A DNA stretch of 64,000 nt from an uncultured Pelagibacteraceae bacterium (GTDB lineage Bacteria; Pseudomonadota; Alphaproteobacteria; Pelagibacterales; Pelagibacteraceae), in contig CABYFN010000002.1 in NCBI GenBank assembly GCA_902518235.1, positions 1 through 64,000 on the forward strand, given 5' to 3'. The first letter of the stretch is position 1, and the number at the start of each line of letters is the position of its first letter. The position numbers and the translations under genes are program-made. Below, piece by piece: positions 56,198-61,322 of the stretch. Below the pieces are notes generated by a model. It was given only the letters and a program-made list of their open reading frames with translations. It did no database searches and was not told where the DNA came from.

Positions 56198-57001
56198 CTA
56201 AGTTTCAATTTTTTGTATAGCCGTTTTGATCACATCAGCCCATCCTAAAGGAGATGGCTCAGAAGATTTGATTAAATTTTCTATGTTTACCAACGAACTA
56301 TTAAAATTATCATTTTTAACCAAACAAGCATAATCACTCTTATTTAGCATCTCTATATCATTGTGATTATCACCAACTCCAATGGTGATTATTTCATCAT
56401 CCATTTCTTCTTTAATTAACTCAATAGTTTTCAACATGGCTTTAGATTTATTAGTGTTATCACAAATATTCATTATTCTTCCCCCATATTGAATAGTTAA
56501 TCCTGAGTCAGTCATAATGTTAATAAATTCATTTTTTTCACTTTCAGTTCCATTAAATTGAATTGGAATAGAATGATATCTTTTTTTAGCAAGCATCATT
56601 TTATCCAATGGAAGACCAAATATTTCTTTTTGCTCTTTTGATTTCAATTTCAAAACAAAAGTAATTTTTTGTTTTAAACCAGAGGGAATGTTTTCATTAT
56701 AAACTTTATAAATTTGATCACTAGATCTACTTAATGATATTTTTTCAGGCAGATTTTTATGTATCAAGTTTAAACCATGAATTGACGAACCATTTTCTGC
56801 AACAAAACTTAAATTTAAATTATATTGTTTATTAAAGTCTGATAATTCGGCTTTTGTTTTACTAGAGTTTGGAATTATTTTTATGCCCTGTGAGACTAAT
56901 TCTCTGAAGTAATCCTCAATCTCATCAAACTTAAATGTATCTTTGTTTAGCAGAGACCCATCTAAATCAGTAAAAATTATAATTTGTTTTTTTTGTTTCA
57001 T
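56198..57001 (-). CDS. Glucosyl/mannosyl-3-phosphoglycerate phosphatase-like HAD-IIB hydrolase
   Basis: IIIFTDLDGSLLNKDTFKFDE; ITIGVGDNHNDIEMLNKSDYA; start set to MKQKKQ (57001), since the upstream residues in the track derive from the tRNA-promoter repeat. Confidence 0.82.
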   Translation of the reverse strand: MKQKKQIIIFTDLDGSLLNKDTFKFDEIEDYFRELVSQGIKIIPNSSKTKAELSDFNKQYNLNLSFVAENGSSIHGLNLIHKNLPEKISLSRSSDQIYKVYNENIPSGLKQKITFVLKLKSKEQKEIFGLPLDKMMLAKKRYHSIPIQFNGTESEKNEFINIMTDSGLTIQYGGRIMNICDNTNKSKAMLKTIELIKEEMDDEIITIGVGDNHNDIEMLNKSDYACLVKNDNFNSSLVNIENLIKSSEPSPLGWADVIKTAIQKIET

Positions 57002-57042
57002 TAAAGTAAATATTAGCATAAATACTCATGAAAATAACTAAT

Positions 57043-57089
57043 GCCCTCGTGGTGAAATTGGTAGACACAAAGGACTTAAAAGCCGAGGG
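57043..57089 (+). pseudogene. Internally deleted tRNA-Leu copy 1 (5' acceptor, D-arm, anticodon 5' half, then directly 3' acceptor strand)
   Basis: gccctcgtggtgaaattggtagacacaaaggacttaaaa|gccgaggg; identical to the intact tRNA minus 34 nt (60501-60534). Confidence 0.85.
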
Positions 57090-57100
57090 ATAGAAGTTAA

Positions 57101-57128
57101 AGTCAGTCCATAGTAGTCCAAGGTAGTC
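57101..57128 (+). repeat. Phased AGTCC array, cassette 1 left
   Basis: AGTCC/AGTC at 57105, 57115, 57125 (10-bp spacing), preceded by AGTC at 57101. Confidence 0.75.
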
Positions 57129-57208
57129 TTAAACATCCTGTAAAATCTCATAACTTTGAATTAGCTTTCAATTAAGATTAGAAAACAAGGCTCAATTAAT
57201 TTGCTCAA

Positions 57209-57228
57209 ACTATTACAGGACTATTACA
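57209..57228 (+). repeat. Cassette 1 left paired repeat ACTATTACA gg ACTATTACA
   Basis: Matches 58761-58780 (actattacaaggctattaca) on the far side of the ORF. Confidence 0.75.
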
Positions 57229-57267
57229 CAGATAGATATTATTATATGGTTCATTTAAAGGCTCTAT

Positions 57268-58725
57268 ATGAAAAAATATAAATGGTTGTTATCAATCTTT
57301 CTTACATTTACTGTCTGTATAAATGCTGAGGCATGGATAAATCCTCCATCATCAGCAATGGAGCCGTATATTGCAAAAAAGGCGAGTCAGCAAAAAGGCT
57401 TTTTTTGTATTGTAGCAAAACAAGTTCCAGGCAATACATTTCCTAGGGAGCTTTTAAATGAAGCATATATTAATTTAAGCATAATGGATAGAACTAAGAC
57501 ACATCCATGTACATTAAGAGCACATTATATAGTTACCAGAGAAGATCATAGAGATTTATTTTTTAAAATTCATTTAAGATTAAAAGACCCGAGTAGAAGA
57601 ACAAAAAAAATTCCAACTTCACTTTTAAAAAGAATAAAAGCTGAAGCGCACGAAGTTACTAAAAAAGATACACAGCTTCATACTTTAAAAACAAATATTA
57701 TTAACGAATTTACAAATCTTTCAGATCAGGTTCTATACATTAAAAGAGAGGAATTAAGTGACAGAAAAATTATTTTGAGTGAAGGATATGGCTCAAGGTG
57801 TCGATCGGTTGCTGATTCAATGGAGTTTAAAATATCTAGCGATATTCAAAATGATCAATTAAATTTATCCTTATCTATCGCAGAAGCAAATTCAAATACA
57901 AAAAATACTGTAACATTTTATTATTCTGCAGAAATTAAAAGTGATGGCTCAAATGGTAAAATTTATCTAAGTAATAAAAGAATTGAAGGAACTAATAAGT
58001 TCAAAAAACAAGTAAAGAAAAATGAAGGTGCATATCTCTATATTGGTTGGACTCTAATGTCTGATTTTTCACCACTTTCACATTATGGAACTAATAATTC
58101 TTTATTTTTAGAAAAAAAACTTGATGGTGGAATGTTTCTTTCAGAACTTTTATCTATCCTATCCCAAAATAAAATGTTGGATGGTAAAACTGTAGAAGTA
58201 TTTAAATCACAACTTATAAATAATTCAGATATTGATATCACAAAAAAATATGTTGGATTTACAGAAATTGATAACGAAAAATATGATATATTCAAACATT
58301 CTTTTAAAACAAACTATTTTGGCAATGATGCTAGAGTAAAACAATTTCTAAAACAAAATATGATGATGAACCAAGAAATTTATATTTTTGTTCATTCAAA
58401 AAGTGGTTTACCAATTGTCTTTTATACAGATAAAATGTCGAAGCCAACAATGTATACACAAATGAGATGTAGTCTATATCAAGATGATACTCTTATAAGC
58501 TCGTACTCTTCTCCAGGAAAAATTGAGTTTGAAGGTGAACAAACGTTAAAAAAAGAAAAAAAAGAAAAACCCAAAAAACTAGTAAACACAAAACAAAATG
58601 ACTCTAAAAACAGTGCTGGAGATGAAGATATTGTTACTAAAATTGAAAAACTTAATAATCTTTATAAAAGTGGCGTATTAACTAAAGAGGAATTTAAAAA
58701 GGCTAAAGAAAAATTACTAAATTAA
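57268..58725 (+). CDS. Exported protein of unknown function with C-terminal SHOCT-like segment (cassette 1 cargo)
   Basis: Signal peptide MKKYKWLLSIFLTFTVCINAEAW; C-terminus IVTKIEKLNNLYKSGVLTKEEFKKAKEKLLN. Confidence 0.75.
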   Translation: MKKYKWLLSIFLTFTVCINAEAWINPPSSAMEPYIAKKASQQKGFFCIVAKQVPGNTFPRELLNEAYINLSIMDRTKTHPCTLRAHYIVTREDHRDLFFKIHLRLKDPSRRTKKIPTSLLKRIKAEAHEVTKKDTQLHTLKTNIINEFTNLSDQVLYIKREELSDRKIILSEGYGSRCRSVADSMEFKISSDIQNDQLNLSLSIAEANSNTKNTVTFYYSAEIKSDGSNGKIYLSNKRIEGTNKFKKQVKKNEGAYLYIGWTLMSDFSPLSHYGTNNSLFLEKKLDGGMFLSELLSILSQNKMLDGKTVEVFKSQLINNSDIDITKKYVGFTEIDNEKYDIFKHSFKTNYFGNDARVKQFLKQNMMMNQEIYIFVHSKSGLPIVFYTDKMSKPTMYTQMRCSLYQDDTLISSYSSPGKIEFEGEQTLKKEKKEKPKKLVNTKQNDSKNSAGDEDIVTKIEKLNNLYKSGVLTKEEFKKAKEKLLN

Positions 58726-58744
58726 AAATAGTATTCTTATCTAT

Positions 58745-58785
58745 AGGATTTTATAGGATAACTATTACAAGGCTATTACACAGGG
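58745..58785 (+). repeat. Cassette 1 right repeats: AGGAtttt/AGGAtaac (10-bp) plus paired CTATTACA
   Basis: AGGA at 58745 and 58755; actattacaaggctattacacag 58761-58783. Confidence 0.75.
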
Positions 58786-58863
58786 AGATAAAATAAAAAA
58801 AATTTACTTATTAACCTTGTTCAATTATAAATATTAGCATAAATACTCATGAAAATAACTAAT

Positions 58864-58910
58864 GCCCTCGTGGTGAAATTGGTAGACACAAAGGACTTAA
58901 AAGCCGAGGG
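58864..58910 (+). pseudogene. Internally deleted tRNA-Leu copy 2
   Basis: Same 47-nt sequence as 57043-57089, with the same upstream aaatattagcataaatactcatgaaaataactaat. Confidence 0.85.
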
Positions 58911-58921
58911 ATTCACATTTC

Positions 58922-58950
58922 AGTCAGTCCATAGAAGTCCAAGGCAGTCC
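58922..58950 (+). repeat. Phased AGTCC array, cassette 2 left
   Basis: AGTCC at 58926, 58936, 58946 (10-bp spacing), AGTC at 58922. Confidence 0.75.
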
Positions 58951-59026
58951 AAACATTCTATAAAATAACATAACCTTAATTTAGTATAAAATTAGTATTA
59001 GAAAATAAGGTTTATTAATTTGCTCA

Positions 59027-59048
59027 GACTATAGCAGGACTATAGCAT
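59027..59048 (+). repeat. Cassette 2 left paired repeat GACTATAGCAG GACTATAGCAT
   Basis: Matches 60358-60380 (aactatagcaagactatagcatg) on the far side of the ORF. Confidence 0.75.
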
Positions 59049-59075
59049 GAGGAGATAATATAGTAATATATTTTT

Positions 59076-60311
59076 ATGAATAAAGTATTTTATATTTTAA
59101 TAATTTTTCTTTTAGGATTTAATACTTCATTAGCTAGTGAAAAAAATTATATAATTAAATGTGATAACGATGAAATTACATTAACCAAAAAAGTCAAAAA
59201 AAATTCAAATGAAATTTATGCTTTAGTTAAAGGGGACAATAGTCCTAAATTAACCACTTATCCTAAATTTAATGAAGGTTTAATAAATTGGTATTATATG
59301 AGAGGTGGAGATGAACCAATTGGTGTAAAATTTGAATTGAACATTTTAGATAAAACCTTTGAATTTTATGCTCATAAAATTACCACAAAACAATTAAATA
59401 CTCTTAAAATTAACTTTGAAAAACTAAAGAATAAAAAAATCAATATTACAAAATTTGAAGAATCAAAAAAAAATATATACGAAGAAGCTAAAAAATTTAA
59501 TGAACCTTTGAAAAAATTAAAACAATATTGTGAGGGTGAGTTTTTTAAAGAATTTGCCCAAGATAAATTTTTATTGCCAATAAACATAAGTGATGGAGTA
59601 TTAGAATTAAATAAAGAAACAAAAGATAGATATGATTTAGACTATACTTTTGTAGTTAAAAATCTAAGTGATAGCAAAAGATATAAAACAACAGCTTGTG
59701 TTATACTTTATGATAATAATAATTTAGAGATAGATAAATATCCAGCGTATGATCAAATATCAATAGGTCCAAGGGGTAATAAAAAATTTATTAGCAAGGC
59801 GAATAGAATAAAAAAAGATTTTTGGAACGAAGTCGACTTAATTAAAATTTATATGTCTAGATTTGATTGTGGCACACCTATAGATAAAAGATTTGAAAGT
59901 ATTTCTGAAGGAAGTAATTTGCTGATATTCAAAAAAAATGAGATAAAAATAAAAACAAACAAATCTTCTAATAGCAGTCAAAGTTTTGTTTTTAATGAAA
60001 AAAATAAAGATTTTCCATGGTGTTTTGGCTGGATAAGTGAAAAAATTGTAAATGAAGGTCAATCTTCAGTTAATTCAATGAATAGAAAAATATTAAATAG
60101 TCCAATAATTAAAAAAATATTTAATAGATTAAAATTGTATAAAAATAATGATGGAAATTATTTAAATATAAAAAATGAATTTGATAAAAATTTAGTCAAA
60201 GAGTATCAAGCAGGAAGATCAACATACTTAGGTTATGTTGCAAATTATTCTGGTAGCAAACTTGAGGCATGGAAAACAATAGCAGAAGGTAAATGTATTG
60301 TTATTGAGTGA
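59076..60311 (+). CDS. Exported protein of unknown function (cassette 2 cargo)
   Basis: Signal peptide MNKVFYILIIFLLGFNTSLASEKNY; no family recognised; not obviously homologous to the cassette 1 cargo. Confidence 0.72.
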   Translation: MNKVFYILIIFLLGFNTSLASEKNYIIKCDNDEITLTKKVKKNSNEIYALVKGDNSPKLTTYPKFNEGLINWYYMRGGDEPIGVKFELNILDKTFEFYAHKITTKQLNTLKINFEKLKNKKINITKFEESKKNIYEEAKKFNEPLKKLKQYCEGEFFKEFAQDKFLLPINISDGVLELNKETKDRYDLDYTFVVKNLSDSKRYKTTACVILYDNNNLEIDKYPAYDQISIGPRGNKKFISKANRIKKDFWNEVDLIKIYMSRFDCGTPIDKRFESISEGSNLLIFKKNEIKIKTNKSSNSSQSFVFNEKNKDFPWCFGWISEKIVNEGQSSVNSMNRKILNSPIIKKIFNRLKLYKNNDGNYLNIKNEFDKNLVKEYQAGRSTYLGYVANYSGSKLEAWKTIAEGKCIVIE

Positions 60312-60342
60312 AAAATCTAAAAATTCCTAAAAGTTTATTTCT

Positions 60343-60388
60343 AGGATAATATGGGACAACTATAGCAAGACTATAGCATGGAGAGATA
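60343..60388 (+). repeat. Cassette 2 right repeats: AGGAtaatat/GGGAcaac (10-bp) plus paired CTATAGCA
   Basis: Positions 60343 and 60353; actatagcaagactatagcatgg from 60359. Confidence 0.75.
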
Positions 60389-60461
60389 AAATAAAAAAAT
60401 TTTACTTATTAGACTTGTTCAATTATAAATATTAGCATAAATACTCATGAAATTCACAAAT

Positions 60462-60547
60462 GCCCTCGTGGTGAAATTGGTAGACACAAAGGACTTAAAA
60501 TCCTTGCCATTTATGGAGTGCCAGTTCGAGTCTGGCCGAGGGCACCA
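60462..60547 (+). tRNA. tRNA-Leu (anticodon TAA), CCA encoded
   Basis: GCCCTCG/CGAGGGC acceptor stem, D-arm gtgaaattggtagacac, anticodon arm aaggacttaaaatcctt, T-arm gccagttcgagtctggc, variable arm, A+CCA. Confidence 0.96.
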
Positions 60548-60551
60548 CTAA

Positions 60552-61322
60552 ATGTTAAAATCGCATATTCTTTTTGATCACACAAAAACATCAAAAAAAA
60601 TTAAAAATTTCTTAGATAATAAAATCAAAAATGTGTCTTTACATAAATGTAATCTAATAATTGTTATTGGAGGAGACGGTTTTATGCTTTCTGCACTTAA
60701 AAAGTATAACAAGTATAAAAAACCTTTCTATGGGATTAATGGAGGTAGTTATGGTTTTTTAATGAATAAATTTTCTTTGAAAAATACTATTAAAAACTTA
60801 TCAAAAGCAAAACAAGTTACAATCTCACCTTTAGAAATGACTGTAAAAAACAAATTTAATAAAATTAAAAAATCTATTGCTATAAATGAGGTATCAATTT
60901 TAAGACAAAGCAGACAAACTGCATCATTAGAAATTTCTAGTGGATCTCAAAAAATCATAAAAAAATTAGTTTCTGATGGGATATTAATATCAACGCCTGC
61001 GGGTAGCACTGCTTATAACATGTCAGTATATGGACCTATTTTAAACTTAGACTCTAGAAAACTCTCAATAAGACCTATCAGTGCGTTTAGACCAAGAAGA
61101 TGGAAAGGTAGAGTTGTTAGTGATAAATCAAAAATTGTAATTAAAAATCTTAATATTCAAAAAAGACCAATTAGCGCAGTAGCTGATAATTATGAAGTTA
61201 GAAATGCTAAAATTATTTCAATTATAACAAATAAAAAAATTAAGTTTAATCTTCTTTACGATTCAAATAAAAGTCTTCAAAAAAAAATTAAAATAGAACA
61301 GATCAGAAAAGAAACTAGCTAA
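60552..61322 (+). CDS. nadK: NAD kinase
   Basis: LIIVIGGDGFMLSALKKY, FYGINGGSYGFLMN, GILISTPAGSTAYNMSVYGPIL. Confidence 0.93.
   Translation: MLKSHILFDHTKTSKKIKNFLDNKIKNVSLHKCNLIIVIGGDGFMLSALKKYNKYKKPFYGINGGSYGFLMNKFSLKNTIKNLSKAKQVTISPLEMTVKNKFNKIKKSIAINEVSILRQSRQTASLEISSGSQKIIKKLVSDGILISTPAGSTAYNMSVYGPILNLDSRKLSIRPISAFRPRRWKGRVVSDKSKIVIKNLNIQKRPISAVADNYEVRNAKIISIITNKKIKFNLLYDSNKSLQKKIKIEQIRKETS

Follow-up and report, generated by a model that had tools for sequence, protein, structure and literature searches.

Tandem single-gene cassettes at tRNA-Leu(TAA) in Pelagibacteraceae and satellite-like elements as candidate helpers

Organization of the tRNA-Leu(TAA) Locus

The window analyzed here is a stretch of 64,000 nucleotides from an uncultured Pelagibacteraceae bacterium (assembly GCA_902518235.1, contig CABYFN010000002.1, positions 1 to 64,000), the genome of which comprises 895 kb in 49 contigs and is 69% complete. 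Upstream of its tRNA-Leu(TAA) gene, the window contained two short tandem units, each with a single open reading frame (ORF), which appear to be non-autonomous integrative cassettes that would be moved in trans by the integrase of a satellite-like element. The first 39 nt of tRNA-Leu(TAA) were present in three copies (57043, 58864, and 60462), and these 5' halves delimited two units of 1821 and 1598 bp (57043–60461). Each unit started with the 5' half of the tRNA up to the anticodon loop, fused to GCCGAGGGAT, which was followed by an AGTC array, a leader, a repeat pair, and one ORF. Downstream of the ORF were AGGA-containing decamers, a second repeat pair, and a promoter-like block, a copy of the tRNA promoter region, which led into the next 5' half, the final one being that of the intact tRNA. 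The features of the locus are as follows:

56198–57019, minus strand: left flanking host gene, a HAD-type phosphatase, mannosyl-3-phosphoglycerate phosphatase-like (ORF; name read from the sequence)
57008–57042, plus strand: conserved promoter-like block of the upstream tRNA-Leu region, now preceding cassette 1; matches the block before the intact tRNA
57043–57081, plus strand: attL of cassette 1, tRNA-Leu 5' half; the presumed crossover is the anticodon loop CTTAAAA (57075–57081)
57082–57128, plus strand: element side of cassette 1 attL, GCCGAGGGAT and AGTC array (57101, 57105, 57115, and 57125)
57131–57207, plus strand: conserved leader of cassette 1 (direct-repeat family; of the 76 cassettes of this type, 59 have its motif)
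57209–57228, plus strand: left arm pair of cassette 1, core TATTA (copies start at 57209 and 57220)
57268–58725, plus strand: cargo 1, 485 aa, exported-type N-terminus and C-terminal SHOCT domain
58742–58760, plus strand: decamers TATAGGATTT and TATAGGATAA of cassette 1, adjoining the right arms
58761–58780, plus strand: right arm pair of cassette 1, core TATTA (copies start at 58761 and 58772)
58803–58863, plus strand: right end of cassette 1, tRNA promoter-region copy; resembles the block upstream of the uninserted tRNAs of L214 and L229, present in 73 of 76 cassettes
58864–58902, plus strand: junction of cassettes 1 and 2, second tRNA-Leu 5' half
58903–58949, plus strand: GCCGAGGGAT and AGTC array of cassette 2 (58922, 58926, 58936, and 58946)
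59028–59047, plus strand: left arm pair of cassette 2, core TATAG (copies start at 59028 and 59039)
59076–60311, plus strand: cargo 2, 411 aa, exported-type N-terminus, no family
60359–60378, plus strand: right arm pair of cassette 2, core TATAG (copies start at 60359 and 60370)
60401–60461, plus strand: right end of cassette 2, tRNA promoter-region copy now serving the intact tRNA
60462–60547, plus strand: intact tRNA-Leu(TAA), target site and attR of cassette 2 (ARAGORN, Rfam)
60552–61322, plus strand: right flanking host gene, nadK (ORF; name from an earlier annotation)

The AGTC arrays of both units had identical offsets (58/62/72/82), and families of direct repeats linked the three block starts, with 93% for the second copy and 73% for the copy that enters the intact tRNA. 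The right ends of the two units were 88% alike over 169 nt. The paired repeats of cassette 1 were ACTATTACA, with one copy reading GCTATTACA, and those of cassette 2 were ACTATAGCA; within its own cassette, each core was present in exactly four copies, and the cores differed between the two cassettes (TATTA and TATAG). Chance was excluded as the origin of this layout because it recurs in many Pelagibacter units.

A first-pass annotation of the window had described two tandem modules of shared architecture upstream of the tRNA, each with one exported-protein ORF, and the absence of a recombinase. The boundaries, direct repeats, equal array offsets, and paired repeats bear out this description, both ORFs had a signal-peptide-like N-terminus, and a PF00589 search of the window detected no recombinase, the sole match of the genome being located on another contig (C27). 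The same annotation had regarded the last tRNA as intact, which holds, and the upstream copies as internally deleted tRNA-Leu genes, which are better read as attL junctions. ARAGORN and Rfam called the intact tRNA only and left the other two 5' halves uncalled. A role of its own for a deleted tRNA was also rejected: pairing of GCCCTCG with CGAGGG is possible in the main type, but its predicted fold was no better than that of shuffled sequences, and the acceptor-strand CGAGGG pairing was missing in several other element types.

Diversity of the Locus in Relatives

When the start of the cassette was used as a DNA query, 150 of 201 genomes of the genus gave a match, a figure that includes genomes in which just the intact tRNA matched. 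The junction GGACTTAAAAGCCGAGGG had 107 matches in genome contigs, nearly all of which were from SAR11, the cultured strain HTCC9565, with a unit of its own (L136, L224), among them. One to three extra 5' halves were present at 49 of the 99 oriented loci, a few of which lay beyond the flanking phosphatase gene (L214, L215, and L229). In most oriented relatives nadK was directly 3' of the tRNA, and in 30 oriented loci the phosphatase gene was located near the tRNA, at a distance ranging from <100 bp to 16.8 kb. The intact tRNA of L214 and L229 was about 98 bp from the phosphatase gene with nothing inserted in between, and the block upstream of it was the one found at the right ends of cassettes.

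A total of 123 distinct units, nearly every one with a different cargo, were collected from this hypervariable locus in Pelagibacter relatives, with size quartiles of 1.5, 2.0, and 2.9 kb; those of <6.5 kb contained mostly one (51 units) or two (35 units) ORFs of at least 60 aa. The combination of GCCGAGGGAT and the AGTC array was common to many relatives and to two integrase-bearing elements, L183 and L305, which are treated below as candidate helpers. Other junction types included AACATAGGGT, TAGTTTGAGT, and CCCCAAGGAT, as well as more, several of which were followed by a similar AGTC array. Neither the leader nor the right-end motif TATAGGATAA, the latter found in 68 of 76 cassettes, was present in L183 or L305; the cassettes are therefore not simply recent deletions of known helpers.

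The first-pass annotation had proposed serial site-specific insertion at one tRNA and suggested a comparison of this locus among relatives. The loci carried zero, one, two, or three recognizable units, the cargo differed between conserved ends, and uninserted intact tRNAs were observed; the opposite pattern, with the same two ORFs in all relatives and no empty sites, was not found. These results support the view that the locus consists of recurrent minimal units that were serially inserted at a single tRNA.

L181 was considered as an empty site and rejected, as its tRNA is interrupted after TCCTTGCCGCC. The break lies past the cassette crossover, which would fit recombination by another element at a more downstream point of the same tRNA. 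In L214, L215, L229, and L143, the two host genes to the left of the tRNA, for GPGS and an MPGP-like protein, were located between a decayed tRNA-Leu 5' half, which continues into TCCTTTAAAG or a similar sequence, and the next 5' half. This 2.2-kb gene pair looks like an old captured unit itself.

Paired Repeats at Both Ends of the Units

Each of the 123 units was searched for tandem 8-mers, the two ends separately, and a clear repeat pair was detected at both ends in 63 of them. The left pair started about 126 bp past the crossover, and 103 bp separated the start of the right pair from the next 5' half; in a circularized unit the two pairs would therefore stand almost equally far from the crossover, at about +126 and −142. 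The 5-bp core was identical at left and right in 62 of the 63 units (best of pair combinations), whereas the number of such units in 5000 shuffles averaged 7.7 and never exceeded 18; 16 different cores were represented. In a motif-free test on 120 units, the longest string shared by the two ends averaged 13.4 bp, compared with 7.4 bp (maximum 8.2 bp) after shuffling. For only 28 of the 120 units did the unit's own right end rank first or tie for first as partner, which is attributed to cores that are common to several units. By eye, L204 had different cores at its two ends (ACTAGAGC at left and CAGCAC at right), and it is probably a hybrid of two cassettes.

Element-specific paired sites that flank a crossover have the appearance of the arm-type sites of lambda-like integrases. 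The paired repeats of the units are probably integrase arm sites, a role that the first-pass annotation had not recognized, and their geometry argues for a lambda-like integrase, rather than the host Xer, as the mobilizing enzyme.

Satellite-Like Elements and Phages at the Same tRNA

Candidate helpers were recognized in satellite-like elements of 7.7–8.8 kb that are located at the same tRNA and encode an integrase of 545–551 aa. Four IMG/VR contigs (L243, L276, L284, and L290) contained the same 5' half, the AGTC array, and a gene for a tyrosine integrase of 545–549 aa. They were circular or permuted contigs in which the right end, the 5' half, and the left end were joined as an attP junction, and the end of L243 (7.8 kb) repeated its own start, as in a circle. 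Integrated relatives were found at the same SAR11 tRNA in L183 (8806 bp), L305 (8802 bp, at the L110 locus), and L175 (7776 bp); past the crossover, the starts of L183 and L305 were nearly identical to that of the common cassettes. L183, like L243 and L284, encoded an integrase, a primase-helicase, and a RusA-like resolvase. Small size, an integrase, a replication gene, and no recognized structural family among the scanned ORFs give L183, L243, and L284 the traits of satellites, and no conjugation gene was found among the scanned ORFs of the candidate helpers. Their presence in IMG/VR and the circular contigs are compatible with packaging into virions, which they do not prove. The first-pass annotation had called for a search for tyrosine recombinases; the genome of the window itself had only the C27 match, and the candidate helpers were recovered elsewhere, at this same tRNA. 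A single-sequence search of IMG/VR with the L183 integrase recovered nothing, whereas an alignment search recovered the family.

In L183, L305, L175, L243, L276, and L290, a right-end repeat pair was located at −103/−104, as in the cassettes, and its core recurred in the first codons of the integrase gene; L284 had the same arm pattern by eye. The cores were CAGCA (L183), CAGTA (L305), TAGAA (L175), GGGTC (L243 and L290), and GGATC (L276), and CAGCA and CAGTA were the first and third commonest cores among the cassettes. Integrases with different cores diverged mainly at the N-terminus. Those of L183 and L110 shared 54% identity in alignment columns 26–130 and 92–94% beyond, and those of L243 and L276 shared 76% in the N-terminal columns vs. 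93–95% in the rest, while L243 and L290, which have the same core, shared 96% in the N-terminal columns vs. 93–95% in the rest. The predicted integrase structure (mean pLDDT 78, pTM 0.45) had an N-terminal domain of three strands and a helix, the structural matches of which included the arm-binding domains of the HPI and HAI7 integrases (3jtz, with an E-value of 0.19 and a TMt of 0.74, and 3ju0, with 0.18 and 0.67; both E-values are weak). The body of the enzyme matched the Tn1549 and lambda integrases in structure, and a search of PDB sequences with the integrase profile gave no match.

Pattern matches in L327–L335 were examined as helpers for the window cores and rejected, as they had neither a helper gene nor a tRNA half. 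In L290 (9405–12305), a 966-aa DEAD/DEAH helicase-like protein, perhaps defense cargo, was encoded next to the satellite integrase.

Phages also appear to use this tRNA. In four phage contigs from IMG/VR (L245, L249, L258, and L259), the same 5' half and an integrase gene were no more than about 120 bp apart, and in L245, where scanned, a phage RNA polymerase gene adjoined the integrase gene; the pelagiphages HTVC200P and HTVC119P (L295 and L296) had a tRNA-Leu(TAA)-like stretch adjoining int. Judged from these sequences, phages, satellites, and cassettes appear to share one common attachment site.

Cargo Genes

The units contained 269 ORFs, 248 of which were on the tRNA strand, and these formed 178 clusters, including 143 singletons. 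A simple heuristic predicted a signal-like N-terminus in 66 of 114 main cargos, compared with 32 of 299 background ORFs. Pfam domains in 102 main cargos included trypsin-like proteases (8), autotransporters (6), pilin N-terminal motifs (5), caspase domains (4), SHOCT (3), and a few methylases and helicases, and PADLOC identified restriction-modification and candidate defense families. The largest cluster consisted of 31 type IV pilin-like ORFs. Several such ORFs occurred within one unit in L155 (5686 bp from 3829, about 10 ORFs), L040, L121, and L125.

Among the 398 other genomes of the genus, cargo 1 of the window had one longer match (30% over residues 158–485) and others that covered the C-terminal end only, and cargo 2 had no relative. 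The fold of cargo 2 predicted without an alignment had a pLDDT of 30 and was unusable. No integrase, primase, or regulator domain was found in either window cassette, each of which has one ORF. A sigma-70 scan detected promoters no more numerous than in shuffled sequences and no terminator; cassette promoters and terminators were therefore not established by the scan. Near-identical signal-peptide DNA (MKKLLGIVVLGLL) preceded different cargos in L152, L156, L160, L204, and L224, and was also found as a remnant near right ends, which suggests that cargos may be exchanged within the signal-peptide sequence.

Proposed Mechanism and Alternative Explanations

The interpretation that we favor, with a probability of about 0.77, is that the units are non-autonomous cassettes of the form attL-cargo-attR, with one cargo gene each, which integrate site-specifically and are moved in trans by a matching tyrosine integrase. 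The attP of a circular cassette would consist of the right arm pair, about 100 bp with the promoter copy, the 5' half with the crossover, GCCGAGGGAT, the AGTC array, the leader, and the left arm pair. An integrase supplied by a co-resident or incoming satellite, with an N-terminus that fits the arms of the cassette, would bind the arm pairs through its N-terminal domain and carry out recombination between attP and the tRNA-Leu(TAA) anticodon loop. The tRNA would be kept whole since the cassette supplies an identical 5' half together with the promoter region. The displaced promoter and the truncated 5' half would then precede the cargo and may transcribe it; an old promoter that points into the cargo fits the strand bias of the ORFs. 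Repeated insertion would generate the tandem array, and the variable arm core would define a compatibility group between cassettes and integrases.

Several observations weigh against this interpretation. Only about half of the units had a clear repeat pair at both ends, and no helper with the window cores TATTA or TATAG was found. The helper integrase was not found in the incomplete genome of the window, and its relatives were present in only 6 of 399 genomes, although units occurred at about half of the sampled loci. Outside the arms, the right ends of the cassettes differ from those of L183 and L305. Cassettes were sought among viral contigs, but neither the junction signature nor the AGTC array had a match in IMG/VR, and no circular cassette was seen.

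The units might instead be dead remnants of full satellites that lost their own integrase and persisted vertically while the site accreted new elements, in the way that cis-mobilizable elements (CIMEs) arise (PMC5704250). Long inserts without recognizable 5' halves at some loci, as well as some degenerate 5' halves, would agree with such decay. However, decay would erode the core match, which still holds in nearly all units with repeat pairs, and the cassette-only leader and right-end motif around unrelated cargos suggest a lineage rather than repeated decay, which makes this explanation unlikely. It is also quite unlikely that homologous recombination through the conserved flanks after DNA uptake, with no integrase involved, is the main route of cassette exchange. 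The 5' halves and promoter copies are conserved enough for this route, the unequal cores of L204 are those expected of a hybrid, and units that differ in core can carry the same protease family, but the core match at fixed positions around the crossover would be left unexplained, as would the geometry common to integrase-bearing elements and the divergence of the arm-binding domain.

The trans-acting integrase could also come from temperate pelagiphages rather than satellites, given that both the phage contigs and the two isolated pelagiphages described above carry tRNA-Leu(TAA) or similar sequence beside their integrase genes. We regard this as improbable: the phage integrases, at 282–297 aa, would be too short to include the large N-terminal part of the satellite enzymes, and the phage DNA past the crossover is not GCCGAGGGAT followed by the AGTC array. 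More improbable still is that the paired repeats are replication-origin iterons or packaging signals, the match between ends serving replication or packaging. Iterons are likewise short direct repeats about one helical turn apart, and the helpers encode a primase-helicase; however, neither function would readily account for the near-equal placement of the pairs around the crossover, or for a core that covaries with the N-terminus of the integrase and not with its conserved body.

Comparison with Known Mobile Elements

CIMEs retain attL and attR and have no integration genes of their own (PMC5704250). The window cassettes show these traits, with both ends retained and no integration or transfer genes found in them, and resemble CIMEs further in their tandem accretion at one tRNA. 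In contrast, CIMEs are decayed integrative and conjugative elements (ICEs) or integrative and mobilizable elements (IMEs) that move in cis with a conjugative neighbor (PMC5704250), whereas units of the window type have mostly one or two genes, conserved ends of their own, matched arm codes, and satellite-like candidate helpers. Such cassette-specific ends would argue against a recent origin by decay from an ICE or IME.

Small marine satellites include phage-inducible chromosomal minimalist islands (PICMIs; PMC10803314), virion-encapsidated integrative mobile elements (VEIMEs), and tycheposons (PMC10803314, PMC11389934). The candidate helpers resemble them in having an integrase and a primase with DUF5906, in their small size and marine host, and in the lack of recognized structural genes; the cassettes differ in having no integrase, primase, or regulator. 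Tycheposons are summarized in PMC10872708 as tRNA-bordered elements of 4–200 kb with a tyrosine recombinase. By that summary, the window cassettes (1.6–1.8 kb, no recombinase) are not tycheposons, and the helpers would fit the description.

Islands of another streamlined aquatic bacterium offer a further parallel: the additive flexible genomic islands of Methylophilaceae have repeated tRNA ends, namely the last 20 bp of tRNA-Lys (PMC10872708). Recurring partial tRNA copies mark serial insertions in both cases, but the SAR11 repeat is the 5' half with the promoter, and its units are small and carry arm sites. In common with the lambda-like and P4-family integrases, paired putative arm sites flank the core and the N-terminal domain has a fold like that of the HPI and HAI7 arm-binding domains; unlike in those systems, many arm codes exist within one family and are reused by cassettes without an integrase.

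Integron cassettes carry a single gene each and are captured serially at one chromosomal site, which may provide a promoter; they enter at attI, next to intI, by way of their attC sites. The SAR11 cassettes are similar in having mostly one gene, in serial capture at one site on the same strand, and possibly in being read from a promoter at that site. They differ in that they join at the anticodon loop of a tRNA and have long putative arm sites on both sides of it, and neither an attC-like site nor an integron integrase was found at the locus, which sets them apart from integron cassettes. We tentatively suggest, at somewhat less than even odds, that this is integron-like gene capture without integron parts, in which a dedicated lineage of attP cassettes, most of them with one or two genes, inserts behind a tRNA promoter and circulates in the population; arm codes, read by the rapidly changing N-terminus of satellite integrases, would sort the cassettes into many compatibility groups, and the cassettes would exploit satellites that themselves exploit phages. 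No account of cassette arrays with matched arm codes was found in the open-access literature, a search that the primary VEIME and tycheposon papers lie outside, and priority for such arrays is not certain.

SAR11 bacteria rank among the ocean's most abundant and most streamlined cells. Few classical integrases were found in their genomes, mostly one PF00589 match per genome. A cassette system with rare helpers would explain the turnover of single genes at one locus, and the genes that turn over are enriched in exported-type proteins, pilins, trypsin-like proteases, and autotransporters. The matched cores also amount to a naturally occurring collection of over a dozen candidate integrase/arm specificities, from which the reading of DNA by arm-binding domains could be learned. 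More distant satellite-like contigs (L283, L325, and L326), with integrases of about 30–35% identity, had repeats of their own (GTTACCC and GTTAGCC) in the first integrase codons, and in L283 the repeat pair was also present before the tRNA half.

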